Positions 29,137 through 58,311 of a DNA stretch of 64,000 bases are shown piece after piece. The position numbers and the translations under genes are program-made. A model generated the notes under the pieces. The model was not told where the DNA came from and made no database searches. It was given only the letters and a program-made list of their open reading frames with translations. Position 1 is the first letter of the stretch; each line of letters starts with the position of its first letter. The DNA is taken from NCBI GenBank assembly GCA_019744775.1, contig JAIETZ010000013.1, positions 62,001-126,000 on the forward strand. Direction: 5' to 3'. Origin of the DNA: Candidatus Obscuribacterales bacterium (GTDB lineage Bacteria; Cyanobacteriota; Vampirovibrionia; Obscuribacterales; Obscuribacteraceae).

Positions 29137-29556
29137 ATGAGTTTTCTTCTTGATACGTGTGTAGTTTCTGAATTTGTGGCGCCTCGCCCTAACCAAGCTG
29201 TCACAAAATGGCTTCACGATTTGGTAGAAGAGTCCGCTTATCTTAGTGTCGTTACCATCGGCGAGATTCGACGTGGAATAAGTCGAACACCAAGTGTAAA
29301 GCGGCGCGATATGTTAGCCAAATGGTTACACGAGGAATTGCTAATCCGTTTTGATAATCGGATATTGCCACTTGATACCGGCGTTCTGCTCGATTGGGGC
29401 GAGTTTACCGGCAGTCTCGCAAATGAAGGAAGACCGATGCCAATAATGGACTCATTGATAGCGGCAACAGCAGTCCACCATGGACTTACCGTCGTCACTC
29501 GGGACACTGAAGACTTTAGTAGAGCGCGCGTTCGGGTTTTCAATCCATGGAAATGA
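29137..29556 (+). CDS. PIN-domain ribonuclease toxin (VapC/FitB-type)
   Basis: A 139-aa PIN domain. Metal-binding acidic residues: D6 (FLLDTCVVSEF), Glu in TIGEIRRGI (about 47), Asp in PIMDSLIAATAVHHGL (about 106) and the last Asp in VVTRDTEDFSRA (about 124). VapC-type toxins cleave tRNA or rRNA. Paired with the Phd-type antitoxin directly upstream, a common combination. Ends VRVFNPWK, as in many members. Complete and apparently intact. Confidence 0.93.
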   Translation: MSFLLDTCVVSEFVAPRPNQAVTKWLHDLVEESAYLSVVTIGEIRRGISRTPSVKRRDMLAKWLHEELLIRFDNRILPLDTGVLLDWGEFTGSLANEGRPMPIMDSLIAATAVHHGLTVVTRDTEDFSRARVRVFNPWK

Positions 29557-29759
29557 TGTGTGTGAAATCCCTGCTTTGCTGGGTGTAACTCAAATACTCA
29601 TGGATTAAAAAGGCTGCCGTCAGATAAGAAAAAAGCCGGCTGTCAATAGCTAAATGATAAAATAGACATATATTTTCGACCTTGGCGGGGTCGTGGTGGA
29701 GTTGCGGCCGATTTGTCCTCGGCACCAATTGGGTGCTTGTTTCAGGCGTTGGAGGGCGA

Positions 29760-32700
29760 GTGAGAAACGTACTAGTTGCCGTCTTGGTATTGGCTTTGAA
29801 TTGGCTTCAGTGCCCAATTCTGGCGCAAGAAATACCTGTTGACCCCGTACCGGATGCTAGCTTGGCTGCCCAGAGCGCAGCGGCGACTGCGCCTGATGCT
29901 GGGCTGAATTTGAATTTGTCCTCAACTGTCGCCTCGATGACGGCTCCAACATCCATGACCAATCCTGTCAACGTTAATTTGGGCGGTGTGCTTACGTCCA
30001 TTGCGCCTGGCAGTGCTGTTACGCCTGCGCAAATGGTTGCCCTTCATCAGATAATGCGAACGGGTGTGCAAAGCCTGGTTCTGGACAGCATGGGAGCAGC
30101 GCAGGGTGGCACTATGACCATTGGTAGCCATTTGGGTTCGATGCTGGGCTCGCTTACTATTCCGTCAGGAGTCACGGTTTTGTCCAATGCAGCTTCTGCT
30201 GGCGCCATCAATCTGACCGGTAATCTTGTAAATTCAGGCAGCTTTTATTTGTACTCAACAAACGCTGCGACAACGTCTGCTTCAGTTAGTGCTCTCAATA
30301 TTTTCAATAATCAGGGAGCAATGCTATCGACGGTTTTGCCATCTACCTTGCAGGCGAGTTTGCCTTCAGCATTGTCCAGCTTGAACCTGAACCTAAGCGC
30401 TATCAACAACATTGTGAATGCCGGAACAATTGCCAGTTCCGGCAATTTAAATCTTTATGCCGGAGGCTCCATTACCAACGTCGGAGCTAATGCAGTCATG
30501 CAAGCGATGCAGTCTCTGGCACTCACCTCAATGGCAGGAAATATAACCAACGCCGGATTAATGGCCGCTACTTACGGAAACATCAACGTCAATGCGGCAC
30601 AAATTACAAACATGACGGTGAATAATCTTGGCGGCGTGATGCAAGCTTTGAATGGTTCAATCAACTTTCGCGATCAGGCATATGCCGGTGCGGCAAATAT
30701 TTCTTTGCTTGGCGGTGACTATCTATCAAAGGTGTTGAATCTCCATGGCGGACAAGGCACTGTTGATTTGAATGTCGGTAATGTGACTGGTGTTTTGAAT
30801 GCGTGGGGACAATGTGTACGCATGACTGTTGATGCGCCGGTTTTGCAATTGGGTACCATCAATGCCACTGGCGATCCGTATGTCGTGGTGACTGGCGATT
30901 TGAATTTAAATTCAGTTGTTTCTGCTCCTTACTTAGTAGCGATTGCCGGACAAAACATCTTCACCTCTCAGACAAATACCCAATTAATAACCAATGGAGG
31001 CAATCTCGTTTTGGCCGCCGGTGCCGTGGCGGTTGATGCCTCCGGCTCTTGTGCTAACTGCATAAACATAGATAGGTCGGAGTCCGGTGGCGATATCTTC
31101 TTGACCGCAGGTAGAAATTTCGGGCCTTTTGCCAGTCAAAATATCCAGGCTATTGATACAAGCAGCGGTTCCGGCAAGGGAGGCAACTTAACTCTAATTG
31201 CATTCGCTGATTATGAAACCGGACAAACGCGAGGAGGTCATGTTGCTCTGGCACCCGGAGTAATTGTACGGACTAATGGTATCGGCGCGTCAGCAAATGG
31301 AAATGTGACTGTCGTTGCTGAAGCTGCCGGCGGAATGGCTATTGGAATGGGTGGTATCAATACACCGGCTTCTTCTTTTGGTGCAGGTGGTGGTGGCATT
31401 GTTGCTTTGAATGTTGCTACACCAAATGCCGGGCCCGGCGGGCCGACTGTGGACACCGCCAACGGCAATGTCGTTGGTTTGTTCACATCGAATAATTTGC
31501 AAAACGGATCAATATTAGTAGGACAGATTGTGACTGGTGGAGCATTTGCCGATGCAACGCATACAGCAGGAACCGTCAACATCTCGACAGCCGGAGCGAT
31601 TAACACAGGGCTCATAAATGCAGCCGGTGCTGCCGGTACCGGTGCCCCGCGCAATACGGCTTTCAACGGCAACGCTCAATGGGGTGGTAACGGCGGTAAC
31701 GGTAGCAATGTAACCCTGATAGCAGGTGGACCGATCACTACGCAATCAATTCTCTCTTTTGGAGGAGGAGGTGGTGGCGGTGCCGGGGCGAGTGCCAACA
31801 CTTCACTAGTTGGTGGCGAGGGAGGCAGCGGCGGCTCGGGCGGTAACATTTATCTTGGTACAACCAGCACTACCGGCAATACAATTTTCGTCACGGGTGA
31901 TGTTAATTCATCAGGCGGTGGCGGAGGAGGCGGCGGTGGTGGTTCTGTAACCGATGGCTTCAATCTACAAAGTGGCCCCGGCGGTGACGGTGGTGTCGGC
32001 GGTGATGCTGGTACGATCACGATTTCTGCTCCTTCTGCAGTATCCGTTACGGGAGGCTTGTACGCCGTCGGAGGTGGCGAAGGTGGTGCTGGAATGGTTG
32101 GAGCGATACTCAGTTTTGATTCGCCCGGCGGAGGAGGCGGTGGTGGCGGCGGGAGTTTTGGCGGTCCAGGAGGAGGTGGTGGCGGCGGATCAGGCAGGAG
32201 ACGAACTGGCGGTAGCGCCAGTGAATCCGGAAAGGGTGGCGGCAGCGGTATTAGCTATGACGGAGCTGGATTTGGTGAAGATGGTCTGTATACGACGACG
32301 CTTAGCTTTCAGTGGGGCGGCGCCGGTGGAGGCGGTGGTGGCTACTCCCAGGACTTTTCCCATATCCCTCAGGGTGTAGGCGGCGGCGGTGGGCTTAGCG
32401 GCGGCTTTAGCGGTGTGGCCCTATTACCTCCCGGTGAAAGTGGCTTTAATGCCGGTGGTGCCGGTGAGTCAGGCACCTCGAACGCGATCTCCTTGCATGT
32501 TGACGCAGTGAGTGTAGGCGGCGTAATTAATTCAAAGAATAGTTCGGTTGAATTTATTCCCTATCGCGCAACAGGCGTTATTTTTGGAGGAAGTGGTTCG
32601 ACTCCTTCAGTGCTCTACCTTGATAGTGCTTTGCTCTCGAATATTACTACCGGCGTTTTAACTGTCGGCTCACCCACTTATGCCGGCGGTATTTTTGTGG

Positions 32701-35700
32701 CTGCGGCGACAAGCGTTCCATATAACTTGACTTTCTTGACGGATTCATCAGGTGGCGTTGAGACGATTTCAGGCGTTCTTTCAACAAATACTCTTGCAAT
32801 AAACTCTGGCTATATCGGCAATGCGTTGCAGCCGTTGCTCGTTTCTGTGCCCAACTTGAGTGCAAGATCCTCAAGCGGAGACGTCTATATACAAGACAAC
32901 ACGAGCGTGAATTTATTTAACTCTGGTGTAGCAACATCAGGAATAATAATCGATTTTCATATTTTGGTTCCCACTACAGGCAGTTCAATCACAATTCAGT
33001 CGCCAATCGTTATCGATGGTGCCGGAGGGAAGATTGATTTATCCGCTGATGGTGACATCATCGACACATCCGGTTCAGCCTTGCAGGCGGACAACATTAT
33101 ACTCTCAGGTAATCATGTAGGAGATGTTGATCATCCGATTTATATAGCAGCCGGTTCCGGAAACGTTGTTAACTTATCACTTAATTCTGCCGATGATTAT
33201 ATTGTCGATGCAAATCCTGGCGAAAACATCAATATTGGAGCTATTACATCGACAGGACCAGTGTTCATATTGGAAAACGGTTCAATCACAGTATCTGGGC
33301 CGATTTCGACTAACGGCACTGTGACGTTAGCTTCAATTTTAGGAAGTAACGGTTCGATTATTGTCAATGACACCATTACTGCGCATGACAAAATTCGCCT
33401 CACTGCTGATGGAACAGGAACAATGGATATTAATGCCGGCATATTATCCAATAATGCGGACATTATTCTCTCGGCTGCCAATATTGTAGCGACAAGTACT
33501 ATCGATGCCGGTACCGGCGCTGTTAGACTAATTCCCTCTACGAATGAACCAATTGTTGTGAATGGTTTGTCGGTTGGTCCGGCGGGGACATTTTATGCAA
33601 CGAGTAGTTTACTAAATGCAATTACAGCTGATCGAGTGATTATTGGTTTACCTAGTTCACAGGGAGCCACTTCGTTAGCTGCACCGCTAAATCTTGGTCT
33701 GGGTGGCTATGAGTTTGATCTTGCCTTCGCAAGCGGCGGACCATTTCAGGCAAATAGTCAACCCATATTCTCCAATGGTAAATCGTTAACCATAGCAGCA
33801 GGTTCCAGTCTTGACTTGCATACCGTGCGCGTCATTAATGGGGCTGCTGTTTTTGTCTCGCGTGGAAATATCAACTTTGTAGCGATTGATACATCTTCCA
33901 CTGTGGGCGATGGAGGCAATATCGTAGCGGTTGCTGGTGCGGATTACACAAATGATGGTGACAAAATTACCGTAATCGGGTCTTCACCTTCGGGCGGTTC
34001 AATTGTACAGAATTTTGGCTCAAACGCTTTAAGGTCATCCAGCACTGTCGGCAAAGGTGGCGATATTACTCTTGTTGCTTTTGCTACCATGCTGAGTGCG
34101 CTTGACGGTACCGGAAGAATTACCTTGCACCCCTCGGTAACCGTGGAGAGTCAAGGTGCTGGCGCAGACAGTGGCGATGTTATGATAATTGCCAATGGTG
34201 GTGGATCCGCTATCAATTTAGGTTCAATTAGAACTGCTGGTGGTACTGCCGGCTCTGGAAACATCAACATTTCAGCGACCGATCCGATGGGATGGCCGCC
34301 TACACCAACTCCAGTTGATATAAATACACAGACTGGTGTCACTAGCGCTTCTTTCTGTTGCGGTCCAGCTTCGTTTGGTTCGATTAGTATTAACACTATT
34401 ACAGGTGTGGGTGAAAGCAATGTTACGGTGATGGCGGGTAATTTCTTGCATATTACTCAAGTAGTTCTTGATGGCGGACCAGGTCAAAACGGCGGTCACC
34501 TTCAACTTGCAGCTGGTGCGTCTGGAATAGCAGCACCACGGGCATTTATAATTGGTAGCTTTGCTGTCAACGGAGTGGACAACATATCACTGCAGCCAGG
34601 TGTAAATGCTACTCAATATGGCACAGTCTCAGTCAGTAATAATGGCAATATCAATGTTAACCAACTAATACGAGCAGAAACAATATTTATGGTCACCGGA
34701 TTTTCAGGTGGTCCTGCGGCTGGTTTTATAAAAGATATAAGCGACGGCGCTCCTGGCTCGACCTGGCTGCAAGCAAATACTATTCAGTTGGCTACATTTG
34801 GCACGGGTCTACTCGATAACCATATCGGTGTGTCTATAGCTAGCAACGGCAATGCGAGTGTACGTTTACAGGCGATAAGTGGTAATGACAATCTCAGCAT
34901 TCGAAGTGCATCCAATGTGGATGTATTTATAACTTCAAGTGCCGGCAATGACAAAGTATTCAGTCTGACCACAACTTCCGGCAGCAATGCTTCGATAATT
35001 ATTAACCACGACATAATTGTCAGCGGCCCTGTCGGCACGATCAATCTTACTGCCGATGGATCGGGCACCATAACCCGTCCTAATTATCAGGGCACTTTGT
35101 TTGCGCATACGGTCAATCTAACAAGTAGTTCGGGCGATTTAGGAACCGACGCTTCACACATTGATATGCAATCTCCGGACTTTCATTTCAGCACGACTGG
35201 CAGTGTTTTCTTGGATTCTGTGGGACCAATTATCCTGCCTGTTGTAAGCATGTCCGCTTCGCAGAAATTTGCCTTTACGACAAGATCGGACGTCAATGGT
35301 GATGCCTCCATAACGCTTGTAAGCAATGGCAGTAATCCGACAATTCAGGCAGGAACAGTAAAACTCTCCCATCAATCAGGAAATAATACCGGTTTTCTCA
35401 TTCAGCAAGCCCCAGGCACCATTGCTTCTATCTCTGCCATCAATTTATCGCTGGACGGTGGCTCGAATGTAACCATTACAAATAAATTGGATAACACCGG
35501 CGTTCACTTAACTTTCGGCCACACCAATTCCACTTCCAATGTGACAAGTATCGGTAATGTTTACTTGGCCGGATCTGCTGGTTCCGGGGGCGATTTCACA
35601 TTGACGGCCAAACCTGATGCATTAGGCAATGCCAATATTGGCGCTGATCCGGGAGTGTTTTTCCACATGCCTAAAACCAATATTACACTTATAACAACCG

Positions 35701-38132
35701 GGGCTATGTCTACTATCAATACAAACCAGCTGGCTACATCGAGTGGTACTGGCGGCGGCAATTTGCGTTTGGTTACGCAAGGCGGGGACATTACCACTGG
35801 TGATATCTTCACTGATAACTTGCAACAGATTTTTAGTGGTTCAGGAACTCCTCCCAATCATGCGGGCAATGTTGAAATTACAACTGGTACTGGAAGCATC
35901 AATGGCGGCAATATTGTCGTGGGTAATATTAAAGCGAGTTCTTATACTTTCGATTCTAATCTCGCTTCGTTCTTTCCAAATGGATCTAATGGAAAGGGCG
36001 GAGACGTAACGCTGACGTCTCAGGGTGCCACATCATCGGGTTATATACAGACTGGAACAATCAGAACGGAAGGAGATAAGGGTGCTGGCTCAGTTAATCT
36101 AATCAGTGAATTTTCCTCTGTAACAACAAATGCGATTACATCATTCAATGGAGCGCGCCTGATCGGCTTTTCTGGTGTTATGCCGGGATTAAATGGTGGG
36201 GACGTCAATTTAACGGCTGGTACAAATATTACAGTCAACGGTGCAATTGACAGCCACGCATCGTACTTTGTGCCTGGCGGAAGCCCAGTCGTGGCTAGGA
36301 CAAATGGCGTTGGTGGCAATGTGCATCTTGTAGCTAATGGTTCAAACGTCGCGACCGGTTCTATTCTGGTCACTGGTGACATTATTACTATTGGTGATCT
36401 CGGATCGGGTAATGTCGTAATAGAAAGTCGTGGCGGCAATATCAGCCTGCAAAACATTCACGCTGAAAATTTCCATAGGATCTTTAATGGTGTAACACAC
36501 GTCGTTGGTTCTGTGACAATTGCAACGGGAACTCCTATTGTTAATGGTGGTAGCATCGTTGTCGGCAGCATAAATACAAGTTCACGTCCGCTTACTATTA
36601 ACGTGGGTGACATCGGCGGAGATGTAACTTTGTCTTCGACGGGAAATGATCCGGCTTTAGGATCAATAACAATAAACGGCGATATTGATACCATTGGTGT
36701 TAACGGCAATGGTAAAGTTCAAATAACGACAAGGGCGGGTAATGTGGTGCACGCTGCCGGTGAGATAAAGGCAGGCTTGTTAAGTTTTGACAGCAACACT
36801 GGGAACTTTGGTTCTCGACCGGGCTTGGGTGGTCGGGCCATTACGACTGCGATATCAAGCCTTGAGTTCAGCACTGTGGGCGATGTCTATATTAACCAAA
36901 CTGGTGATTTGATTATTGATTCATCTTCTGCCAGTAGCTTTCCATTTAATTCAAGAGTGGAAATTTCTTCCACAGGATCGATTTTTCTCAACGGCTTCAT
37001 TGGTTTTGCGCAATTCTTAACCTTAGTATCTGGCGCTGATATCTTAAATACCCCTTCAATGTCCGGTCAGTTTACTTTGGCTGCAGACTACATAACACTT
37101 CAGGCAGCCGGAACAATCGGCACGGTTAGCGATCCTCTAAGAATACGTACGTTTTTGGGTTATACTGCTTCCAATCCTAATTACATTGATGAACAATTTT
37201 ATTCCCCACTTCCTTTACCACCGCCGCCGCCTCCTCCATTACTAGGACAGTCGCCGGAGACGTTACAGGATATTTTCGAGTCCAGTGTTTTTGCCAACGA
37301 AATCAACGATGTGCAGACATTGGGCCAAACAGGCGCCAGTCTCGAGCACCAGTTAGTGGGGAATTCCAACGTGAACTACCTTCAAGGTGGCCAGCAGGTA
37401 GCGCTGGATGTGCAAATGGGTAACAGCCACGGGCTCGCCAATACGATTAATTCCGCAAATTTCATAGGGGATTCCGGTCATGACTTGCCGGGCAATCAAC
37501 CTACGACAGACAACCAAGCCCTTGGGCAAAGTTTTTCTTATTGCGATGCTGCTGAATTCAATTCAAATTCTGTAGGGCAAATGCAGTCTCATGGAGCATC
37601 GATTGGTTCATCGACGGTAGGCAATCTATGTGTATTGCAACAAGGCAATTTTGTGTTTCAGCCGCACGCAGATATTACCGTGCAGGTGCAAGAAGGTAGT
37701 GTTGAAATTCCAACCGGCGCAACAGTTTTGGTTATGGAAACAGGCAATGATGTCGCCGTATTTGACATTAGCGATGGTCCGAAAGGTCGTGTTCGTGTGA
37801 AGTCGGGCAACAAGATAATTACGATGTCGCCAGGAAAGCAAGTCGTGTTAACAAGACAATTAGATGCGGACTTCGACAAGATAAATCCATCGAAACTTAT
37901 AGGCTACAAAAACCCGAAGAGCCAATTGGTGGCAGACGACATTCGTGCTTATTCAGCCGACTTCTCGCTGCCGTCTGTGATGATGAGCGTTGCCCCAATG
38001 AAGCGCCTGCTTACATCAGACAGCCCGGCCGACAGAAAACTTGTCCAGCGCATGATCAAAAACGCTGTAGTCTTGTCTATGCTGCCATCGAAATCAGGAC
38101 CATTTAAGACGTCTGGAAATAGTCATCCATAG
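29760..38132 (+). CDS. Giant secreted haemagglutinin-like beta-helix protein with FecR-like C-terminal domain
   Basis: A 2790-aa protein, the largest gene here. The start is GTG at 29760 with GGAGG about 5 bases before; it begins a clear signal peptide (VRNVLVAVLVLALNWLQC...ILAQ), which a longer frame from 29682 would bury. Residues about 60-600 and 900-2450 consist of irregular short beta repeats rich in Gly, Asn, Thr and Ser (patterns such as GNITNAG, GGNLTLIA, GSGNINI, GDVTLTS), as in filamentous haemagglutinin-type beta-helices. Residues about 665-890 are extremely Gly-rich (runs of up to nine Gly). A Pro stretch (about 2485, SPLPLPPPPPPPLL) leads to the end region, where about 2620-2715 resemble a FecR domain (ADITVQVQEGSVEIPTGATV, GRVRVKSGNKIITMSPG). 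Probably surface or matrix adhesin. No autotransporter barrel or sorting signal seen. Confidence 0.85.
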   Translation: MRNVLVAVLVLALNWLQCPILAQEIPVDPVPDASLAAQSAAATAPDAGLNLNLSSTVASMTAPTSMTNPVNVNLGGVLTSIAPGSAVTPAQMVALHQIMRTGVQSLVLDSMGAAQGGTMTIGSHLGSMLGSLTIPSGVTVLSNAASAGAINLTGNLVNSGSFYLYSTNAATTSASVSALNIFNNQGAMLSTVLPSTLQASLPSALSSLNLNLSAINNIVNAGTIASSGNLNLYAGGSITNVGANAVMQAMQSLALTSMAGNITNAGLMAATYGNINVNAAQITNMTVNNLGGVMQALNGSINFRDQAYAGAANISLLGGDYLSKVLNLHGGQGTVDLNVGNVTGVLNAWGQCVRMTVDAPVLQLGTINATGDPYVVVTGDLNLNSVVSAPYLVAIAGQNIFTSQTNTQLITNGGNLVLAAGAVAVDASGSCANCINIDRSESGGDIFLTAGRNFGPFASQNIQAIDTSSGSGKGGNLTLIAFADYETGQTRGGHVALAPGVIVRTNGIGASANGNVTVVAEAAGGMAIGMGGINTPASSFGAGGGGIVALNVATPNAGPGGPTVDTANGNVVGLFTSNNLQNGSILVGQIVTGGAFADATHTAGTVNISTAGAINTGLINAAGAAGTGAPRNTAFNGNAQWGGNGGNGSNVTLIAGGPITTQSILSFGGGGGGGAGASANTSLVGGEGGSGGSGGNIYLGTTSTTGNTIFVTGDVNSSGGGGGGGGGGSVTDGFNLQSGPGGDGGVGGDAGTITISAPSAVSVTGGLYAVGGGEGGAGMVGAILSFDSPGGGGGGGGGSFGGPGGGGGGGSGRRRTGGSASESGKGGGSGISYDGAGFGEDGLYTTTLSFQWGGAGGGGGGYSQDFSHIPQGVGGGGGLSGGFSGVALLPPGESGFNAGGAGESGTSNAISLHVDAVSVGGVINSKNSSVEFIPYRATGVIFGGSGSTPSVLYLDSALLSNITTGVLTVGSPTYAGGIFVAAATSVPYNLTFLTDSSGGVETISGVLSTNTLAINSGYIGNALQPLLVSVPNLSARSSSGDVYIQDNTSVNLFNSGVATSGIIIDFHILVPTTGSSITIQSPIVIDGAGGKIDLSADGDIIDTSGSALQADNIILSGNHVGDVDHPIYIAAGSGNVVNLSLNSADDYIVDANPGENINIGAITSTGPVFILENGSITVSGPISTNGTVTLASILGSNGSIIVNDTITAHDKIRLTADGTGTMDINAGILSNNADIILSAANIVATSTIDAGTGAVRLIPSTNEPIVVNGLSVGPAGTFYATSSLLNAITADRVIIGLPSSQGATSLAAPLNLGLGGYEFDLAFASGGPFQANSQPIFSNGKSLTIAAGSSLDLHTVRVINGAAVFVSRGNINFVAIDTSSTVGDGGNIVAVAGADYTNDGDKITVIGSSPSGGSIVQNFGSNALRSSSTVGKGGDITLVAFATMLSALDGTGRITLHPSVTVESQGAGADSGDVMIIANGGGSAINLGSIRTAGGTAGSGNINISATDPMGWPPTPTPVDINTQTGVTSASFCCGPASFGSISINTITGVGESNVTVMAGNFLHITQVVLDGGPGQNGGHLQLAAGASGIAAPRAFIIGSFAVNGVDNISLQPGVNATQYGTVSVSNNGNINVNQLIRAETIFMVTGFSGGPAAGFIKDISDGAPGSTWLQANTIQLATFGTGLLDNHIGVSIASNGNASVRLQAISGNDNLSIRSASNVDVFITSSAGNDKVFSLTTTSGSNASIIINHDIIVSGPVGTINLTADGSGTITRPNYQGTLFAHTVNLTSSSGDLGTDASHIDMQSPDFHFSTTGSVFLDSVGPIILPVVSMSASQKFAFTTRSDVNGDASITLVSNGSNPTIQAGTVKLSHQSGNNTGFLIQQAPGTIASISAINLSLDGGSNVTITNKLDNTGVHLTFGHTNSTSNVTSIGNVYLAGSAGSGGDFTLTAKPDALGNANIGADPGVFFHMPKTNITLITTGAMSTINTNQLATSSGTGGGNLRLVTQGGDITTGDIFTDNLQQIFSGSGTPPNHAGNVEITTGTGSINGGNIVVGNIKASSYTFDSNLASFFPNGSNGKGGDVTLTSQGATSSGYIQTGTIRTEGDKGAGSVNLISEFSSVTTNAITSFNGARLIGFSGVMPGLNGGDVNLTAGTNITVNGAIDSHASYFVPGGSPVVARTNGVGGNVHLVANGSNVATGSILVTGDIITIGDLGSGNVVIESRGGNISLQNIHAENFHRIFNGVTHVVGSVTIATGTPIVNGGSIVVGSINTSSRPLTINVGDIGGDVTLSSTGNDPALGSITINGDIDTIGVNGNGKVQITTRAGNVVHAAGEIKAGLLSFDSNTGNFGSRPGLGGRAITTAISSLEFSTVGDVYINQTGDLIIDSSSASSFPFNSRVEISSTGSIFLNGFIGFAQFLTLVSGADILNTPSMSGQFTLAADYITLQAAGTIGTVSDPLRIRTFLGYTASNPNYIDEQFYSPLPLPPPPPPPLLGQSPETLQDIFESSVFANEINDVQTLGQTGASLEHQLVGNSNVNYLQGGQQVALDVQMGNSHGLANTINSANFIGDSGHDLPGNQPTTDNQALGQSFSYCDAAEFNSNSVGQMQSHGASIGSSTVGNLCVLQQGNFVFQPHADITVQVQEGSVEIPTGATVLVMETGNDVAVFDISDGPKGRVRVKSGNKIITMSPGKQVVLTRQLDADFDKINPSKLIGYKNPKSQLVADDIRAYSADFSLPSVMMSVAPMKRLLTSDSPADRKLVQRMIKNAVVLSMLPSKSGPFKTSGNSHP

Positions 38133-40564: not shown

Positions 40565-43132
40565 ATGAAAGCCGTAATCATGGCCGGTGGTTCAGGCACC
40601 CGCTTGAGACCTTTAACCAGCGATTTGCCAAAGCCCATGGTACCCGTGGCTAATAAGCCTATGGCTGAGCATATAGTCAACCTTTTGAGAAAGCACAATT
40701 TCGACGACATCGTTTTTACGCTGCACTATTTGCCTGAAGCAATTGAGAATTACTTCGGTGATGGCAGTGAGTTTGGTGTCAACATTCGATACTCAACTGA
40801 GCACGGCAAGCCGTTGGGTACAGCGGGCTGTGTCAAAGCGATTCAAGATAATTTGGATTCAACTTTTCTTGTTATCTCAGGTGATTGTTTAACTGACATT
40901 GATTTGACCAAGGCCATTCAGTTCCATAAAGAGAAAAAATCCAAAGCAACAATTGTTTTGAAGCGTGTGGAAAATCCACTTGATTATGGCGTAGTCATAA
41001 CCGATGGTGAGAATCGTATTCAACGTTTTGTGGAAAAACCGGGCGCATCGGAAATATTTTCAGACACGGTAAATTCTGGAATATACATACTGGAACCGGA
41101 AGTTCTGCTCTATATAATTATGGGCCGCGAGCAAGATTTCTCCAACGATCTTTTCCCATTGCTGCTTCTGCGCAATGAGCCAATGTATGGATACGTTGCT
41201 GATGGTTACTGGTGCGACATAGGCAATTTGGCTGTATATCGCCAAGCGCATCTGGATATTCTTGATGGCAAAGTGAAACTAGAAATTGCCGAACAACAAA
41301 TAGTTCCCGGTGTGTTTGTTGGACAAGGGACAGAAATTGATCCCAAAGCTAATTTGGAAGCCCCAATATTAATAGGCAGCAATTGCCGTATTGGACGTGA
41401 TACCCATTTGGGTCCACACACTGTGATAGGCGACAATGTCATTGTTCAAGAAAAGGTTTCACTGAAGCAGCCAATTATTTGGTCGGGTTCTTATATAAGC
41501 AACGAAGCACAACTGCGCGCCTGCATTCTCTGTAAAAGCGTGACTGTGCACAGAGGTGCAGAAATTCTTGAAGGTGCTGTCATCGGTGCGGACTCGTCTG
41601 TGGGACAAGAAGCCCATATTGCTCCGGATGTGCGAATCTGGCCCAATAAGTCAGTCGATTCAGGAGCCAGTGTAACTTCTTCTGTTATTTGGGGGACGCG
41701 TGCGCCGAGAAGCCTCTTTGGTGCTCGTGGAGTATCTGGACTGGTTAATGTGGAAATTACTCCGGAGTTTGCTGTTAATTTGGCGGCGGCTTATGGTGCC
41801 ACTATTAAAAATGGACCCGTGCTTGTCAGCCGCGACTATTGGGGCGTCAGTCGCATGATCAGCCGAGCAATTGTCTCTGGGTTGATGTCTGTCGGTGTTG
41901 AGGTGCAAAACCTGGAAGCGATGCCTTTGCCGATTGCTCGTTTCTATGTGAAAACACAAAGAGCGGCAGGTCTCATTCATACGCGAGTTTCGCAGCGTGA
42001 AACTGACAAGATCGCCATTGAGTTTTTCAATAGCGATGGAACGGTAATATCTAAATCAATGGAGCGCAAGATTGAAGGTACCTTCTTTAAGAAAGACTTT
42101 CCGCGCTGCTTGCCGGCTGATGTCGGAAATATTAGTTATCCAAGTCGCGTGCGCGAATACTACATGGCCGAATTCTTGACCCACATAAAAGGTCAGGTGT
42201 TTGAACAAGACAAAGTGGCATTCTGTGTGATGCCCGGTTCGACATTCACACGTATGACCAAAGATGGTTCGTTTACCACGCGTGCGCCAAAGGTTGCAGT
42301 TGATTATGCGATGGCTGAAACTGGCGTAATCTTGCCTGACTTGCTTGGTCAATTAGGTGTGGAAACCGTTGTCTTGAACGCTTCTATCCGTGGTGTGCCG
42401 CCACGGCAAGAAGAGCGCATTGCCATGCGCAAGCAATTAGCTGATGTTGTAAAAGCTTTGAAGGCTGATTTGGGTATCCAGATTGGTCGCAATGGTGAGC
42501 AAATAACTCTCGTTGACGAAACAGGACAAATTATTCGCGGTGAATTACTGCTTGCCACAATTGTCGATATCGTTTTACGCGACAAACCAGGGCGCTCCGT
42601 TGTTGTGCCTGTAAATTCCAGCTCTGTAATAGAGCGCATTGCCGCTCGCTACGGCTCGAAAGTTGTGCGCTGCAAGGCATCGGAAACAGAAATTGGCGTG
42701 ACGGTTTCGCAACTTTCCGATGCTGCTCTAGGGGGCTCGTCCAATGGATGTTTTGTTTTCCCGGAATTCCAAAATGGCTATGACGCTATGTTTGTCATAG
42801 GTCAGGTCTTGGAGCATCTAACATATCAAGGACGCACACTGTCGCAGGCGGTTAATCAGTTGCCGACGCTTATTTATCAAGTTGATTCGGTGCACTGTCC
42901 ATGGGAACGCAAGGGACGCGTTATGCGTTTGCTGGTGGAAAAACATCACAACAAGCCCATGGAACTTCTTGATGGTGTTAAGATTCAGACTAGGCCGGAG
43001 CACTGGATTCTAGTGCTGCCGGATCCGGTCGATCCCCTCGTCCATGTATATGCCGACGGTATTGACCTGCAATCAACTTCGGCGGACTTAAATGAGTACA
43101 CCCAGCTGGTTCGATACCTGCAACAAGTTTAA
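40565..43132 (+). CDS. Nucleotidyltransferase / hexapeptide-repeat / phosphomannomutase-like fusion (cyanobacterial-type mannose-1-P guanylyltransferase)
   Basis: An 855-aa, three-part protein. Residues 1-230: NDP-sugar pyrophosphorylase with MAGGSGTRLRPLTSDLPKPMVPV (donor loop), SGDCLTD (metal Asp) and FVEKPG. Residues about 245-370: left-handed beta-helix hexapeptides (ILIGSNCRIGRDTHLG, VIGDNVIV). Residues about 385-855: phosphomannomutase-like domains with key motifs eroded: the phospho-Ser loop TASHNP reads RVSQRE (S476 kept), the metal loop DxDGDR reads GRNGEQ, and the C-terminal phosphate loop is changed. So the first half probably makes GDP-mannose or another NDP-sugar, while the mutase half is probably inactive or regulatory. 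The same architecture is known from cyanobacteria. Strong AAGGAG site; follows the GT4 gene. Confidence 0.9.
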   Translation: MKAVIMAGGSGTRLRPLTSDLPKPMVPVANKPMAEHIVNLLRKHNFDDIVFTLHYLPEAIENYFGDGSEFGVNIRYSTEHGKPLGTAGCVKAIQDNLDSTFLVISGDCLTDIDLTKAIQFHKEKKSKATIVLKRVENPLDYGVVITDGENRIQRFVEKPGASEIFSDTVNSGIYILEPEVLLYIIMGREQDFSNDLFPLLLLRNEPMYGYVADGYWCDIGNLAVYRQAHLDILDGKVKLEIAEQQIVPGVFVGQGTEIDPKANLEAPILIGSNCRIGRDTHLGPHTVIGDNVIVQEKVSLKQPIIWSGSYISNEAQLRACILCKSVTVHRGAEILEGAVIGADSSVGQEAHIAPDVRIWPNKSVDSGASVTSSVIWGTRAPRSLFGARGVSGLVNVEITPEFAVNLAAAYGATIKNGPVLVSRDYWGVSRMISRAIVSGLMSVGVEVQNLEAMPLPIARFYVKTQRAAGLIHTRVSQRETDKIAIEFFNSDGTVISKSMERKIEGTFFKKDFPRCLPADVGNISYPSRVREYYMAEFLTHIKGQVFEQDKVAFCVMPGSTFTRMTKDGSFTTRAPKVAVDYAMAETGVILPDLLGQLGVETVVLNASIRGVPPRQEERIAMRKQLADVVKALKADLGIQIGRNGEQITLVDETGQIIRGELLLATIVDIVLRDKPGRSVVVPVNSSSVIERIAARYGSKVVRCKASETEIGVTVSQLSDAALGGSSNGCFVFPEFQNGYDAMFVIGQVLEHLTYQGRTLSQAVNQLPTLIYQVDSVHCPWERKGRVMRLLVEKHHNKPMELLDGVKIQTRPEHWILVLPDPVDPLVHVYADGIDLQSTSADLNEYTQLVRYLQQV

Positions 43133-48029: not shown

Positions 48030-50096
48030 TCACCTGCTACTGCCATTTTGTGCAACGGTATAAAGACGTGACATAGCCTTCATTAATGCATCGCGACCCT
48101 GGAAGCCAACCATGTGATCCAAAACTTGTCCCTGTTGTCCAAGGAAAAACATATTGGGTACGGCACGAACGTTGTAATGCTCAACTAGTGCTTTATTTTT
48201 TGGATCGTCAATATCGATGGAGACAAATTCAATCTTGTCTCCATATTGACGTTGCGCTTCTTCTACGTGCGGCTTCAATGCTTTGCATGGGCCACACCAG
48301 GTAGCATAAAAATCCAAAAATTGTGGTTTGGAGGATTGTGGACGACTAGAAATTGCATTCGGTACATTTGGCGCTCCTGGCGCTGTTCCAGGCAATGCAT
48401 TTACCGGATTGATTATTCTTTCAGGAGTTATGGCTGCCGTGATAGCAAAGTTGATAATGCGCGGATCTTTTTCTTCTCGGGATGCTGATTCCACCTCAAC
48501 TGTCGGAGCAAGATGCGACCCTTCAATGTTGATTGCCAGGTGGCTGACGCCTTTGAAATCAGTTGCGTGTCCTTCCAGGCGCAGCGTGCGCTGTGACAAG
48601 ACAATCTTTCTTATCTGCACGCCTTCCGGCGTATCAGTTCTTATGGTTTCCAGAGTCTGTGACCAAGGGTGTCTTTCCTTGATGATATTTACCAGAATTA
48701 CTTTGCGCCGTTCTAACTGCTCGGTGGCTTCTTTTATCTCGGGCAATTGTTTTAGCTGGACTTTCTGTCTGTCAAAATCCGCCTGTTGACGGTCAATTTG
48801 AGCTTGTTTTTGTGGGATATCGACTTGTGTGGCATAAGCCCAGAATCCGGCTACCCCGAGAAGAATAGCAGTGCCCACAGCCAGTGCAGGCATAAACCAC
48901 GGAGTAGTTTCTTCAGCTACGACAGAAATTCCGGCAACAGGACCCAAGCCTTCCAGCAGAGTTGCTGATGGTCCTTCTCTATTTAAATCAAGATCCACAG
49001 TTGAGACAGGCGACCAGGCCGGCTCAACCAAAAGTCCCAACGGCAATGCGTAGACTGCTCGCTGGTTCATAGGGATAAGTTCAGAGTTAACCAAATTCTG
49101 GAACGGATCAATTATTGTCGAAGGGATATTTAGCCTTGTCTGCAAGAAGCGATCTACTTGCGGAACTATAGAACCTGGACCGGAAACATACATCTCCTGA
49201 ATTTCCACTTCACCGACTTGCGAACGATAGAAATCAATCGAACGAATAATTTCATCGGAAATATCACCAAGTACAGTTCGGGCGATTTGTGCTGCTTGAG
49301 TGAGAGCAGCGTCATTGCTGGTTGTTTGCAAAAGAGGAATGTGCGGAGCTAAACCGCGCGCTTCCATCACTGTAATGTCCAGACTACGCGCAATGGATTC
49401 CGTTAAGGTGTCCATACCCAGCACAACAGAGCGGCTGAATAACGGCGTGCCTGCCTTCAGGAAATTGATGTCTGTGCCGTCGTGACGGACGGAAACTGAC
49501 ATAGTCAGTTTGTCATCTTGTACGCCGTATCCGGCAAAAGCCAATGCTCTAATTGTCGACAGTGACGAGACACTTATAGTGTTTAATGGAATGCCTACAA
49601 TGTCTGAAACATGCCAGAAAGAATCCACAATGTGTTTTTGGATAGCTGCCAAAATTACATCGACTCTTTGTACGCCATCAACATCCGTGCGCTCAGAAGC
49701 TGGCAATAAGGACCAATCAAGATTAGCTTCTTCCAGTGGAAACGGCACGTGATGCAAGGCTTCTTGCCTGACAACGTCGGCAAGTTCTTCCGGCGGAATA
49801 CCTGTTGGTACAGGCAGCAAACGAATAATTACTGATTGCCCAGGTGCGGCCACGTTTAGAAGCGGTAACGGCCGGGCTATTTTGATACCGGCTGATTGGA
49901 TTACTTCTTTCAGTGTATAGCCGACTGCTTCCGGATCAACAATAATTCCTTCACGAACGGAGTTGACCGGGCTTGGCTGATAGGCAAAACGGACGAATTC
50001 AATGCCCCTTTTGGTCTTCTCGACCTGGATAAGGGTAATTGTCTCACTATTAATATCGACGCCCAGCTTTGGGCCTGTCTTATTTAGGGAGAACAC
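48030..50096 (-). CDS. PilM-PilN-thioredoxin triple fusion
   Basis: A 688-aa protein joining three parts usually encoded separately. Residues 1-345: actin-like PilM (LGVDINSETITLIQVEK, IIDPEAVGYTLKEVIQ..., VRQEALHHVPFPLEEANLDW, VYVSGPGS-type segment MYVSGPG at 302-308). Residues about 366-560: PilN with a VDLDLNRE stretch near 367, membrane helix FMPALAVGTAILLGVAGFWA (401-420), coiled coil (425-475) and ferredoxin-like domain (480-560). After a Pro/Asn linker, 593-688 are a thioredoxin: FYATWCGPCK with C601 and C604, and the cis-Pro in VRAVPNMFF. Known PilM is cytoplasmic and the PilN tail periplasmic, so the thioredoxin should be periplasmic. GTG start. Precedes pilO and pilP. Confidence 0.92.
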   Translation of the reverse strand: MFSLNKTGPKLGVDINSETITLIQVEKTKRGIEFVRFAYQPSPVNSVREGIIVDPEAVGYTLKEVIQSAGIKIARPLPLLNVAAPGQSVIIRLLPVPTGIPPEELADVVRQEALHHVPFPLEEANLDWSLLPASERTDVDGVQRVDVILAAIQKHIVDSFWHVSDIVGIPLNTISVSSLSTIRALAFAGYGVQDDKLTMSVSVRHDGTDINFLKAGTPLFSRSVVLGMDTLTESIARSLDITVMEARGLAPHIPLLQTTSNDAALTQAAQIARTVLGDISDEIIRSIDFYRSQVGEVEIQEMYVSGPGSIVPQVDRFLQTRLNIPSTIIDPFQNLVNSELIPMNQRAVYALPLGLLVEPAWSPVSTVDLDLNREGPSATLLEGLGPVAGISVVAEETTPWFMPALAVGTAILLGVAGFWAYATQVDIPQKQAQIDRQQADFDRQKVQLKQLPEIKEATEQLERRKVILVNIIKERHPWSQTLETIRTDTPEGVQIRKIVLSQRTLRLEGHATDFKGVSHLAINIEGSHLAPTVEVESASREEKDPRIINFAITAAITPERIINPVNALPGTAPGAPNVPNAISSRPQSSKPQFLDFYATWCGPCKALKPHVEEAQRQYGDKIEFVSIDIDDPKNKALVEHYNVRAVPNMFFLGQQGQVLDHMVGFQGRDALMKAMSRLYTVAQNGSSR

Positions 50097-50131: not shown

Positions 50132-51172
50132 TTATCTATCACCTGCTTGAAAGATGCCACCGCCAGTCCAAAAAATGGCGGCCATTGCCCCTGCTGCCAG
50201 CGCCGGACCAAAAGGAAATGGCTTGGAGACCTTGCTGCCGACTGAAATAAAGCCGAGCATACCGCCGGCGATTGCCCCCAGGGCGCAAGATCCCAGCCAT
50301 GGCGTAGATAAAGCAATCCCGCCGGCCGCCATTTGAAAGGCGCCTAGAATGGCTCCCACAATAACAATCCCCAGGGATGCTCCGAACAGCACAGGTCTTA
50401 GGCACTGGCTGATAATCCCGTGCTTGTACATTTCGCGTGCCAAATAAATGACACCCATTATGGTGCCGACCAGAAATCCAATAATTAGAGCAACGAGTAA
50501 TTTCTGCCAACCAAGCCAGGCGGATATCACCGCCGATAGTACCGCGTCGCCACCGCCCATTACTTCTATCTCTTCATTTTCAGCATCTGCTTCCGCCAGA
50601 GCTTCGCCGGCTTCGACTGGTGGCGTTTTGTGGAAACACAAATACCATTTCAGTCCGTAGTGAGCGATGAAATCAAAGAGGATGTAACTTATGCCTATGC
50701 CTGCAAGCGTTCCTAAAAGATCATTGCGAATGAAATGACTGTAGGCGATACCCACAAGCATCGAAGGGTAGGTGATGTCATGCGGTATCAGTTTTTCTCT
50801 TAAATCGGTTACGGTTATCGCAATTAGCGTAGAGGAAAATGCCATCATTGCTGCCGTTTGCCAGGTTGGACCAAACGTCTTAAATAGGATGATGAAAATT
50901 ATTGCCGTAAAAAATTCTACAAGTGGATACTGAATGGAAATCTTAGCCTGGCAGAAGCGGCATTTCCCTTTGAGGATGAGATAAGAAATTATTGGAAAAT
51001 TGTCGTACCACTTAATGCTTTTATTGCACGACGGGCAATGCGACGGCGGCCACAATATGGACTCATTTGCCAATGTGCGCGATGCCAGAACATTCAAAAA
51101 ACTGCCGCAAGCAAGACCAAGAATTACAACCAGGACATCTTGGGTAAGCTGTGAATTGAGGTCTATTGGCAT
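50132..51172 (-). CDS. pilD: Prepilin leader peptidase / N-methyltransferase
   Basis: A 346-aa A24 aspartic peptidase. N-terminal methylase part has LACGSFLNVLASR and the zinc cysteines C46, C49 (CPSC), C71, C74 (CRFC). Catalytic Asp 123 in TDLREKLIPHDITYP and Asp 209 in GGGD. It cleaves and methylates pilins at the inner membrane. Longer than the family norm (about 290): an acidic loop (about 185-205) before GGGD and extra hydrophobic segments at the end. Its ATG touches the stop of the ABC permease gene. Confidence 0.93.
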   Translation of the reverse strand: MPIDLNSQLTQDVLVVILGLACGSFLNVLASRTLANESILWPPSHCPSCNKSIKWYDNFPIISYLILKGKCRFCQAKISIQYPLVEFFTAIIFIILFKTFGPTWQTAAMMAFSSTLIAITVTDLREKLIPHDITYPSMLVGIAYSHFIRNDLLGTLAGIGISYILFDFIAHYGLKWYLCFHKTPPVEAGEALAEADAENEEIEVMGGGDAVLSAVISAWLGWQKLLVALIIGFLVGTIMGVIYLAREMYKHGIISQCLRPVLFGASLGIVIVGAILGAFQMAAGGIALSTPWLGSCALGAIAGGMLGFISVGSKVSKPFPFGPALAAGAMAAIFWTGGGIFQAGDR

Positions 51173-51958
51173 CTAGGAAAATTCGCGTCGTTCGGTAATA
51201 AGTGTTGACAGAGCAAGCAGTAAAACTATATAGGCCATGATATAGGCAACCAGATAAGTAATCAATTCAGAACCGGGATTGACACCACTTGTTAAATCCG
51301 AGCGTACTAGAGTTAGTTTTGCCAGATCGGGCATGACCCAATAGGCAGTTTTTAGAATGAGCTTTGTCGAGGCTGAGTCTGTAATCTGGGCCAGAGCAAG
51401 CAGTGACTGTCCCAGATGTCCTATCAACCAGGCGCCTAGTGTAAATACAACACTCATCATTGGGGTGGCAAAAGTTGAGAAGAATGTTGCTATTGCCGTT
51501 ATGAACAGCAATTCCAAATAAATAAGCGGCAGCGAATAGATTAAATCGAAATTGATCTTCTGATCAGGCGACATGTACCAAGCTAATGCCACAAGAAAGC
51601 TGCCCATAAGAATGGTCACGATTAAAAGACAAATTGCCAGACCAAGAAATTTCCCCAAGACAAATTGCCAACGTTTGATCGGTTTGGTGACAATTAGGTA
51701 GATGGTGCGTTTTTCAATTTCCTTATAGACAAGCGCAGTGCCGACAAAAATTGCAATAATGCCACCAAAAACGGAAATGGTGGCAAGCCCCAGATCTACA
51801 AGAATGCGCAGGTTCTGCCCGACTGATAAACTTCCCAGGACAATTCCTGCCAAGGTCAAAATAAAGGCAAACAGCAAAAATGCATAAAGTACACGATCGC
51901 GCACCGTTTCACGCAGTGTGTTTAGAGCAATTGTCATAACGGCGTTAATGGCGTTCAT
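51173..51958 (-). CDS. ABC-2 type permease in pilus locus
   Basis: A 261-aa membrane protein of the NosY/GldF kind: first helix YAFLLFAFILTLAGIVLGSL, TISVFGGIIAIFVGTALVYKEIEKRTIYLIVTKPIKRWQFVLGKFLG (the usual coupling region), four more helices and a hydrophobic end (AYIMAYIVLLLALSTLI). Together with the ATPase gene 2 bases upstream it forms an ABC exporter. Related pairs serve gliding or multi-copper enzyme maturation; here it sits between a sigma factor and pilD, so a role in pilus or surface export is inferred from position only. Confidence 0.88.
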   Translation of the reverse strand: MNAINAVMTIALNTLRETVRDRVLYAFLLFAFILTLAGIVLGSLSVGQNLRILVDLGLATISVFGGIIAIFVGTALVYKEIEKRTIYLIVTKPIKRWQFVLGKFLGLAICLLIVTILMGSFLVALAWYMSPDQKINFDLIYSLPLIYLELLFITAIATFFSTFATPMMSVVFTLGAWLIGHLGQSLLALAQITDSASTKLILKTAYWVMPDLAKLTLVRSDLTSGVNPGSELITYLVAYIMAYIVLLLALSTLITERREFS

Positions 51959-51960
51959 AA

Positions 51961-52728
51961 TTAGTTGCCCTTCTTATGATTTGCTTCCGCTTCTTGAATG
52001 GTGGCAAGGAAGAAGTCCTCTAGTTTTAGGTAGTTGCCACCGGCAGTAATGTCGGAAACCTTGCCTTGGTAGATTAGCTTGCCTCTGTTGAGAATACCTA
52101 TGCGATCACAGACTTCGCTTACATCAGGCAATAGATGTGAATTAAAAAATATGGTCTTGCCTTCACTCTTTAGTCTGTGCAAGATAGTCCGCACATCTCG
52201 CCTGCCGATTGGATCAAGTCCGGATGTCGGTTCGTCCCAAAAGATAAGTTCCGGATCGTTCAAAAGAGATTGGGCAATTCCCAGGCGCTGCATCATCCCT
52301 TTGGAGAATTTGCCAATTGGCCTTTTGGCCGCATCAGTCAGACCGACTAGTTCTAAAAGTTCTTTGGCTCTTTCTTTCCTTTGCTTGTTAGGCAAAGCAA
52401 ATAGACGTCCGGAGAAATCAAGGAATTCTTGTGCGCTTAAATAAGAATAGAAATAAGGAGCTTCCGGCAAAAATCCCACTCGAGCGAGTGCTCGTGTATC
52501 GCCTGCGTCGTATCCCAAAACTTTTACTTCGCCGGATGTCGGGCGCAAGAGGCCGAGGAGTAATTTGAGCGTTGTTGTCTTGCCGGCGCCGTTTAGTCCG
52601 AGCAAGCCAAATGTCTCGCCTTTACCTATTGTCAGGCTCAGTTGGTCTAGAGCCTGAAATCGTTTTCTCAAAAAATTGCTGAAGTGTACTTTGCCTAAGT
52701 TGACTGTTTCAATGACGGCTTGGGTCAT
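51961..52728 (-). CDS. ABC-2 exporter ATP-binding protein in pilus locus
   Basis: A 255-aa ATPase: Walker A GLNGAGKTTT (around 43-52), signature FSKGMMQRLGIAQ, Walker B LIFWDEPTSGLDP, switch His in FNSHLL. GxxGAGKTT with the DVSEVCDRIGILNRGKLIYQG segment is typical of the NatA/CcmA-like group. The start overlaps the sigma-factor gene by 20 bases and lacks a strong ribosome site, suggesting reinitiation. Energises the permease next door. Confidence 0.92.
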   Translation of the reverse strand: MTQAVIETVNLGKVHFSNFLRKRFQALDQLSLTIGKGETFGLLGLNGAGKTTTLKLLLGLLRPTSGEVKVLGYDAGDTRALARVGFLPEAPYFYSYLSAQEFLDFSGRLFALPNKQRKERAKELLELVGLTDAAKRPIGKFSKGMMQRLGIAQSLLNDPELIFWDEPTSGLDPIGRRDVRTILHRLKSEGKTIFFNSHLLPDVSEVCDRIGILNRGKLIYQGKVSDITAGGNYLKLEDFFLATIQEAEANHKKGN

Positions 52729-53611
52729 GGTTGTTCTTTTGGCTGGCGCCCTTCTTGCTTTGGGTGATTATCTTGTACAGCTCGCTTGTTGCTGCTCTCA
52801 GTCTTCTGGAAACTTGCATTTGAGATATCCCTAGGCGGCGAGCGACTTCAGTTTGGCTCAAGTCCTCATAGAAAGTCAACTCAACAACCTCACGCAAACC
52901 ATCGCGCAATTGCTTGATAGCTTCGCCCAGCATGAAACGGTCTTCTTTGGCTATTTGCAAATTCTGGTATTTGCCGTCAACCAAGGTGTCAACAAGAGAC
53001 TGCTCGTTGCCGGCATCTCCTGTTAAGGCTTGGTCAAGGGAAATCATCGTACGGCGTCTGTCTACCTCATAGGCTTCGTTAACGCGCGATACCGGGATTT
53101 GCAGCTCGCCGGCAATTTCCACATCGGTGGGCTCTCTGCCCAGGCGCAATGTCAGGTTTTGCACCAAACGGTTGATGCGGAAGGACAATTCCTGCAATTC
53201 TCTGGGAGCACGGATCATTGCCGTCCGGTCTCTTAAATAGTGGCGTATTTCGCCTGTTACTAAGTGGGTAGCATAAGTCTGAAACTTAGCTCCGGCATCA
53301 GGCTTAAACTGGTCCACAGCCTTGATAAGCCCAATTGAGCCCACTTGAATCAAATCCTCGACAGGGTCAGTCGAACGGCGGGCTAAGCCGTAGGCAATAC
53401 GCTTAACAAGCGGAATTGCCGCCTGGATGACAGCATCACGTACAGCTGGATCCCTTGTCTCGGCATAGACTTTCAGCCACTGATGAATTTGATCGTGGCT
53501 TCTGTCCTTTTCGGACCTATCAGACCCCGGTCCGAGGTCTACTTTCTGCTCGAGTGCCGGTTCTTCCGGCGGCGTTGGCTGCGTTTTTTCTTGCAAGCTC
53601 CGGTGCACCAT
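52709..53611 (-). CDS. RNA polymerase sigma factor, SigB/SigF/SigG type
   Basis: A 300-aa group 3 sigma factor. Region 2: LVKRIAYGLARRSTDPVEDLIQVGSIGLIKAVDQF and FQTYATHLVTGEIRHYLRDR; region 3: APRELQELSFRINRLVQNL; region 4 helix-turn-helix: LSQTEVARRLGISQMQVSRRLRAA. Residues 1-40 are a polar tail. Related SigF proteins control type IV pili and motility in cyanobacteria, and this gene is embedded in the pilus locus, so a similar role is a fair inference. No anti-sigma gene is adjacent. GAGG site 7 bases before ATG. Confidence 0.93.
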   Translation of the reverse strand: MVHRSLQEKTQPTPPEEPALEQKVDLGPGSDRSEKDRSHDQIHQWLKVYAETRDPAVRDAVIQAAIPLVKRIAYGLARRSTDPVEDLIQVGSIGLIKAVDQFKPDAGAKFQTYATHLVTGEIRHYLRDRTAMIRAPRELQELSFRINRLVQNLTLRLGREPTDVEIAGELQIPVSRVNEAYEVDRRRTMISLDQALTGDAGNEQSLVDTLVDGKYQNLQIAKEDRFMLGEAIKQLRDGLREVVELTFYEDLSQTEVARRLGISQMQVSRRLRAATSELYKIITQSKKGASQKNNHDPSRH

Positions 53612-53722
53612 TTATTGCCTCGTGACGACTAATTTATATTGTAATTGATTGTAATCGGCATTGAAAAGCAAAGGCAAGATCTTTGACGGCTTAACCTGAC
53701 CAATCTTTATGATTTAAGGCGA

Positions 53723-55027
53723 TTATTTAACCTGGTTGATAATGGTGAAGATGGGCAGGTACATGCCGATAACGACAGCGCCTACGATTCCGCCAATGCC
53801 TACAACCATGATTGGCTCAAGCAAAGAGGTAAGGGCTTCTACCGAGTTTTCGACCTCAACATCGTAAAAGTCGGCGATTTTTTCCAGCATCTCATCCATA
53901 CGACCGGTTTCTTCACCAATGGCAACCATCTGTGTGACCATGGGTGGAAAGATTGGATCTCTGGAAAGGGGTTTGGAAACCGTTCCACCCTGTCGTACTT
54001 CGTTGTGTACGTTTTCAATGGAGCGCATTATTACAGCATTTCCGGCCGTCTCCTTAACTACTTCCAGCGAAGAGAGCATTGGGACGCCTGAGTGAATTAA
54101 TGTGCCGAATGTGCGAGAAAAACGAGCGATAGCCACCTTCTTTAAAAGATCGCCGAATATAGGCAGCGTCAGGAGAAAAGCATCAATTTTGTAGCGGCCG
54201 TCTTCAGTCTGATACCACTTAGCAATACCGGCACCAGCTCCTAAAGTAGCCAGAAATAGAATTAGCATCCATATGGATCGAACAAAGTCCGATAAGGACA
54301 AAAGCAGCTGGGTGAACGCAGGCAACTCTGCGCCCATTTCCGTAAACATCTTGGAAAAAATAGGCAGAATGAACGTAAGCATGCCCCACAAAACCAGTAG
54401 AGCAACCAGCAATACAGCAATTGGATAATACATTGCTGATTGTACCTTCTGCGTAAGTCTTGACGCAGACTCCTGAAATTCGGCTAATCGAGCGAGAACT
54501 TCATCGAGAATACCGCCTGTTTCGCCGGCGCGAATCATTGCCACGAAAAGCCGGTCAAACACATCTGGGTGGTGGGCCATGGCATCGGATAAAGAAAGAC
54601 CTTGTTCAACGGATTTACGCACAGATTCAAGAGTGGCTTTCATTTTTTTGTTTTCGCATTGCTCGACCATGACGGACAGCCCGCGCAGAATAGCTACACC
54701 CGCTTTCACCATTGAGGCAAATTGGCGTGAAAATACAACAAGATCCTTAAGTCCGACTCGTGGCTGTAGAAGCGCTACAACTTGAGTCATTATCGGGCTT
54801 GATGCGCCCTGAGTACCAAATGTCTTTTTAGCGGCTTCAAAAATTGCGTCCGCTGCAACGTCCTGGGGTTTTGCTGCCGCATCCGATGTCTTTTTTGCGC
54901 GTATCTCAACAACACTCATGCCGCGACTGGCCAAACGCGCACGCAAGGCCGACGGTGATTCGGCCTGTGCTGTGGCTTCCAAAACCCGCCCTGTTCTGTC
55001 TCTAACTCTGTATATGAATTCGACCAA
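53723..55027 (-). CDS. pilC: Type IV pilus inner-membrane platform protein PilC
   Basis: A 434-aa member of the T2SF/PilC family: N-terminal MVEFIYRVRDRTGRVLEATAQA, then two T2SF domains, the first with FSRQFASMVKAGVAILRGLSVM (about 102), the second with FSRTFGTLIHSGVPMLSSLEVV; four membrane segments including MLILFLATLGAGAGIAKW and VVGIGGIVGAVVIGMYLPIF. PilC anchors the assembly and retraction ATPases. TTG start with GAGGAG 8 bases upstream. Follows pilT by 14 bases. Confidence 0.95.
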   Translation of the reverse strand: MVEFIYRVRDRTGRVLEATAQAESPSALRARLASRGMSVVEIRAKKTSDAAAKPQDVAADAIFEAAKKTFGTQGASSPIMTQVVALLQPRVGLKDLVVFSRQFASMVKAGVAILRGLSVMVEQCENKKMKATLESVRKSVEQGLSLSDAMAHHPDVFDRLFVAMIRAGETGGILDEVLARLAEFQESASRLTQKVQSAMYYPIAVLLVALLVLWGMLTFILPIFSKMFTEMGAELPAFTQLLLSLSDFVRSIWMLILFLATLGAGAGIAKWYQTEDGRYKIDAFLLTLPIFGDLLKKVAIARFSRTFGTLIHSGVPMLSSLEVVKETAGNAVIMRSIENVHNEVRQGGTVSKPLSRDPIFPPMVTQMVAIGEETGRMDEMLEKIADFYDVEVENSVEALTSLLEPIMVVGIGGIVGAVVIGMYLPIFTIINQVK

Positions 55028-55041
55028 CTAGCTAACTCCTC

Positions 55042-56157: not shown

Positions 56158-56170
56158 TATTACCGCCTTT

Positions 56171-58300: not shown

Positions 58301-58311
58301 TGTTTTAAGCG

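Follow-up and report, generated by a model that had tools for sequence, protein, structure and literature searches.

The order Candidatus Obscuribacterales possesses a family of predicted giant secreted proteins that end in a common module, a remote relative of FecR as judged from profile and model comparison. One of them, of 2,790 residues, is encoded in the window discussed here, i.e., the 64,000 nucleotides at positions 62,001 to 126,000 of contig JAIETZ010000013.1. We read the giants as surface or matrix proteins that use their FecR-derived C-terminus as a sorting or anchoring module; as a whole, this explanation may equally well hold or fall. That the family is order-specific within the sampled phylum and heavily amplified is well supported by profile searches.

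Giant secreted proteins take up roughly one tenth of this genome and are encoded by dozens of genes in many of its relatives; neither Pfam nor NCBIfam has a model that covers the 2,790-residue member. A FecR-like fold nearly always serves here as the terminal module of secreted proteins and not in sigma signalling. One may ask of what use proteins as long as 25,007 residues are to a non-photosynthetic cyanobacterium. A literature search, with subscription journals and most preprints outside its scope, yielded no description of the family. Neither giant surface proteins nor C-terminal sorting modules are new as such; their combination via a FecR-derived module, at such a scale and confined to a single order of the sampled phylum, does appear to be.

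The open reading frame

The frame runs without internal stops to a stop codon at 38132 and offers two candidate starts, TTG at 29682 and GTG at 29760. The GTG, which yields 2,790 residues, has a GGAGGG just upstream, and the signal peptide opens directly after it. The features are:

29751-29756, +, Shine-Dalgarno-like GGAGGG just upstream of the GTG at 29760 (sequence)
29760-38132, +, giant open reading frame, 2,790 residues (single open frame; dN/dS against a sister species)
29760-29825, +, signal peptide MRNVLVAVLVLALNWLQCPILA, cleavage at about residue 22-23 (sequence; similar N-terminus on other family members)
29907-31052, +, conserved N-terminal module (N-module) of about 390 residues, predicted beta-helix (alignment A2; model pLDDT 79.5)
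31053-37211, +, variable beta-helix-like body rich in Gly, Asn, Thr and Ser (composition; mostly without match in the nearest paralogues; pieces silent in Pfam)
31560-32459, +, Gly-rich block with 34-41% Gly, residues 601-900 (composition; Gly-codon repeats)
37212-37238, +, Pro run PLPPPPPPP at residue 2485 (sequence)
37617-37853, +, FecR-like beta core of the C-terminal module (AlphaFold model, PDB fold match, profile-profile comparison)
37854-38129, +, tail of the C-terminal module, a beta hairpin and three helices, placed at the very end of almost every member (alignments and model; no known family)

The signal peptide, the beta-helix-like body, the Gly-rich block and the Pro run, all named in the original prediction, are indeed present in this one open frame. 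Pfam, searched with the whole protein and with pieces of it, and NCBIfam, searched with the whole protein, recognised nothing in it. Scans for sigma-70 promoters and terminators performed no better than shuffled sequences. Immediately upstream lies a gene for a PIN-domain (VapC-like) protein (29137-29556, +).

An orthologue fragment from a sister species (L017) is 87% identical to the N-terminal part of the protein. Over 646 codons the comparison gives a dN of 0.038 and a dS of 0.317, hence a dN/dS of 0.12. Judged by this ratio, the frame is a real, functional protein that is maintained by selection.

Conserved ends and a variable middle

The N-module was found in 38 of the 53 genomes of the order that were searched. 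Nineteen open reading frames of the own genome contain it, and all but one of them also have the C-terminal module (C-module); the exception runs off contig C5. When the 2,790-residue protein is aligned with four paralogues, the alignment covers mainly residues ~1-630 and ~2265-2787, and three of the four show no match in between; with two paralogues it is confined to residues ~1-555 and ~2265-2787. When 19 bodies were compared with one another, relatedness could be detected in 62 of the 171 pairs. Such a pattern in the alignments suggests that the constrained ends serve a shared handling process, while the free middle carries the individual function.

The C-terminal module and its likeness to FecR

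The C-module comprises the last ~190 residues, i.e., the FecR-like core and a new tail of ~90 residues, a beta hairpin with three helices for which no known relatives were found. The Pfam model for FecR (PF04773) matched neither the 2,790-residue protein nor any of 25 aligned C-termini. A profile built from these 25 sequences, compared with a second profile that comprised 19 true FecR domains from within the order, nevertheless aligned over 70 collinear columns with a probability of 77% (P 2e-5), while the controls failed (reversed FecR 0.1%; the N-module as an unrelated profile 1.7%). The AlphaFold model of the C-module reached a pLDDT of 80.7 and a pTM of 0.81. Its sole PDB match with E ≤ 0.001 was a FecR-family anti-sigma factor, 4m0n (E 4.3e-4); because the TM score is 0.30, this likeness is a partial one. 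By profile and model, the core is a remote, partial relative of FecR beyond the reach of Pfam's FecR model. The FecR-type domain of the original prediction thus fails at the level of PF04773 and survives in the profile-profile and fold comparisons.

Several proteins carry a second FecR-like core further upstream. These duplicates lack the tail, and it is therefore the tail that is the truly terminal element.

A few other resemblances could be dismissed. A match to PF18308 (GGA_N-GAT) and weak sequence matches in the PDB, to C1q or to designed proteins, were put down to the chance resemblance of a helix or of beta repeats. The only genuine PF04773 protein found in the genome (G000:C5:219094-220893; L001, L055) is 599 residues long and combines a signal peptide and the FecR domain with an extended repeat tail of Pro, Thr and Asn; PF04773 matches are also present in 15 other genomes of Candidatus Obscuribacterales.

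The family in the genome and in the order

Far from being an isolated oddity, the giant is one of 28 in its genome, and its family extends across the order. With the last 310 residues as query, 25 further matches turned up in the own genome, mostly in giant frames. A profile search revealed at least 28 open reading frames with a full C-module, which together make up 122,899 residues or 9.0% of the 4.1-Mb genome. The longest frames of the family have 25,007, 12,520, 10,865 and 8,554 residues. The first of them, a predicted frame (G000:C2:174643-249666, -) that is very large for a bacterium, has a signal peptide, an incomplete N-module and a pair of FecR-like cores, of which the last is terminal. 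Two truncated frames, a giant without C-terminus at the edge of contig C5 (G000:C5:1-18354, L162) and a C-module frame without N-terminus at the start of contig C4 (G000:C4:3-5585, L045), may be the halves of one gene split by the assembly.

The module keeps almost strictly to the end of the protein. In 27 of the 28 copies it lies 0-35 residues before the stop (median 2.5), and 29 other genomes, each represented by its best copy, show a distance of 0-16 residues. The sole full C-module in a non-terminal position is followed by TPRs in a 493-residue protein (G000:C1:210963-212444, L032). By a crude count, signal peptides precede 29 of 41 C-module frames versus 105 of 294 other frames; four of the 12 misses have lost their N-terminus at a contig edge. 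The module also terminates small secreted proteins of 229-574 residues without a passenger recognisable to Pfam and is therefore independent of the beta-helix.

The main rival to an address or anchor is a plain cap. The C-module, as a structural or oligomerisation domain, would then close the beta-helix and guard against aggregation, without carrying any sorting information. Its terminal placement on beta-helix giants and its beta-rich fold would suit this task. The small proteins, however, have neither an N-module nor an evident beta-helix to be closed, and the FecR core may be duplicated upstream while the tail remains terminal. We consider a cap rather unlikely.

Across the order, the C-module profile found matches in 49 of 53 searched genomes, with up to 61 per genome, some of which are likely partial. 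Two of the four genomes without a match are 93-95% complete. In a phylum sample of 386 genomes only the own one matched, none of the 385 other Cyanobacteriota did, and searches of plasmids and phages yielded no match either. Since the profile search covered Cyanobacteriota only, the restriction to the order holds within the sampled phylum. Close relatives also occur in two records, SBAT01000316.1 (L018) and SBAT01000026.1 (L021), which are titled "Chloroflexi bacterium isolate Bin_14_1_1"; the title looks mislabelled, and the records seem to represent G436, a genome from the same genus.

Export and gene neighbourhood

Melainabacteria have genes for a diderm envelope (PMC4040986). The own genome, which is 97.8% complete, contains no TpsB/ShlB, not even a ShlB barrel at E ≤ 1. 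Its single Omp85 scores best as BamA and also has a match to the POTRA_2 (ShlB-type) domain. The genome also has two secretins, one PilQ-like and one with a pilus-formation N-terminal domain (T2SS-T3SS_pil_N); the latter (G000:C11:185514-188240, L164) lies near an RND-efflux-like gene. The C-terminus of the giant is the FecR-like module and contains no Pfam beta-barrel, in contrast to autotransporters (type Va). No partner enzyme or translocon is evident beside the family genes at the loci examined, where these genes are solitary or form tandem arrays with neighbours that vary from locus to locus. The supposed lack of a visible translocator partner is borne out by a genome without TpsB/ShlB and with just the BamA-like Omp85.

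The protein had also been called haemagglutinin-like. It might be a divergent two-partner-secretion (TPS) exoprotein. The N-module would then be a TPS domain, and export would proceed N-end first through an Omp85 pore. It is indeed conserved and a predicted beta-helix, the weak fold matches of its model include the TPS secretion domains found in HMW1, HxuA and EtpA, and the single Omp85 does show the ShlB-type POTRA_2. Yet none of these fold matches reaches E ≤ 0.001 in the PDB, and hmmscan, run with the entire protein and with segments of it, found no TPS domain (PF05860); one further TPS-domain search was likewise without match, its controls being silent too. With the only Omp85 looking like BamA and no TpsB at hand, family membership was rejected, and the label haemagglutinin-like finds no support in the family sense. 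As a mechanism, this route is kept as a weak and improbable one.

FecR domains act in the periplasm. The giants might accordingly remain there, as an envelope scaffold or associated with peptidoglycan, with the FecR-like end docking in that compartment. That no exporter was found in the genome would fit. On the other hand, lengths of up to 25,007 residues and a variable body would be more typical of surface proteins, and a periplasmic residence is, in our opinion, quite improbable. The predicted location of the giants is probably extracellular.

Finally, the C-module could be the sensor of a FecR-type signalling chain, as its FecR-like fold and remote homology might imply. However, instead of a cytoplasmic anti-sigma domain and a transmembrane helix, the N-terminus presents a signal peptide followed by the beta-helix-like body; by Pfam, no ECF sigma factor, TonB receptor or secretion gene adjoins the gene; and the 28 copies sit almost without exception at the C-termini of secreted proteins. 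Sensing was rejected for lack of supporting gene context, nothing but the fold speaking for it; its probability is very small indeed. The proposal that the FecR-like end "senses or docks" has to be divided: the almost invariable placement at the C-terminus agrees with docking or anchoring, and sensing is unsupported.

Elsewhere in the window, a type IV pilus cluster (50132-58390) encodes a prepilin peptidase, PilC, PilT and PilB, and within the cluster a PilM-PilN fusion of 688 residues bears a C-terminal thioredoxin domain (48030-50096, -). At 40565-43132 (+), a sugar nucleotidyltransferase is fused to a left-handed beta-helix and phosphoglucomutase/phosphomannomutase domains.

A possible mode of action

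The proposed sequence of events is the following. A Sec signal peptide would bring the chain into the periplasm. The N-module of ~390 residues would initiate a right-handed beta-helix, and the variable repeat body would make up a long stalk or matrix fibre. The C-module, i.e., the FecR-derived beta domain with its hairpin/helix tail of ~90 residues, would be recognised by a common envelope component, and this recognition would sort the protein across the outer membrane or anchor it there.

By the logic that led to PEP-CTERM, namely terminal position, amplification and few other recognisable domains in the carriers, the C-module has the looks of an address or an anchor. Sorting or anchoring, and not mere capping, is a role to which we lean slightly. 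The sorting reading also has to cope with one internal C-module, varying neighbours, no partner found and four genomes of the order without a match. More tentatively, Candidatus Obscuribacterales might possess an export or anchoring system not described so far. Dozens of giant surface proteins per cell would carry the folded, FecR-derived domain and its helical tail as their C-terminal address, to be read by an envelope receptor. The initial guess of a matrix or attachment protein remains the best kind of guess for a secreted giant with a FecR-like end and no recognisable partner. In practical terms, a single C-module profile provides a handle to count the giants and, via phylogenetic profiling, to trace whatever machinery is responsible for their export or retention.

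Comparison with known systems

The FecR family (PF04773; anti-sigma factor in PDB 4m0n/4m0h) resembles the core of the C-module in fold and, over 70 columns, in remote profile similarity. The C-module differs by the absence of a Pfam-level match, of an anti-sigma domain and of a sigma factor or TonB receptor context, and by its new terminal tail. With TPS exoproteins such as FHA, HMW1 and HxuA, the giants share a signal peptide, a conserved N-module and a long beta-helix-like body, in addition to the weak fold resemblance. They lack a TPS domain match and a TpsB and have, in contrast, a conserved C-module.

A formal analogy is seen in the PEP-CTERM proteins. There the module lies few residues from the C-terminus, usually in many copies per genome, its carriers show little else in the way of recognisable domains, and it occurs in diderms only (PMC1569441). 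The C-module, too, occupies the extreme C-terminus of many secreted proteins per genome, and lineage-wide amplification near the C-terminus of carriers with few other domains is common to it and to both PEP-CTERM and MYXO-CTERM tags (PMC1569441, PMC11980579). Unlike these tags, it is a folded domain of ~190 residues without signature motif, transmembrane helix or basic tail, and no sortase was identified. The aligned C-termini look like a soluble beta/helical domain without a motif of the PEP-CTERM/MYXO-CTERM type, NCBIfam remained silent, and models of the C-terminal sorting domain of T9SS had no match in Pfam or NCBIfam.

The giants may also be likened, by description, to the giant surface proteins Giant1-5 of Apilactobacillus kunkeei, which take up ~6% of the genome (PMC12863079). 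In both cases a family of giant proteins, here presumed to be extracellular, occupies a large share of the genome. A. kunkeei, however, belongs to an unrelated lineage. The copies described here are scattered, attain lengths of as much as 25,007 residues and have the FecR-like terminal module in common.
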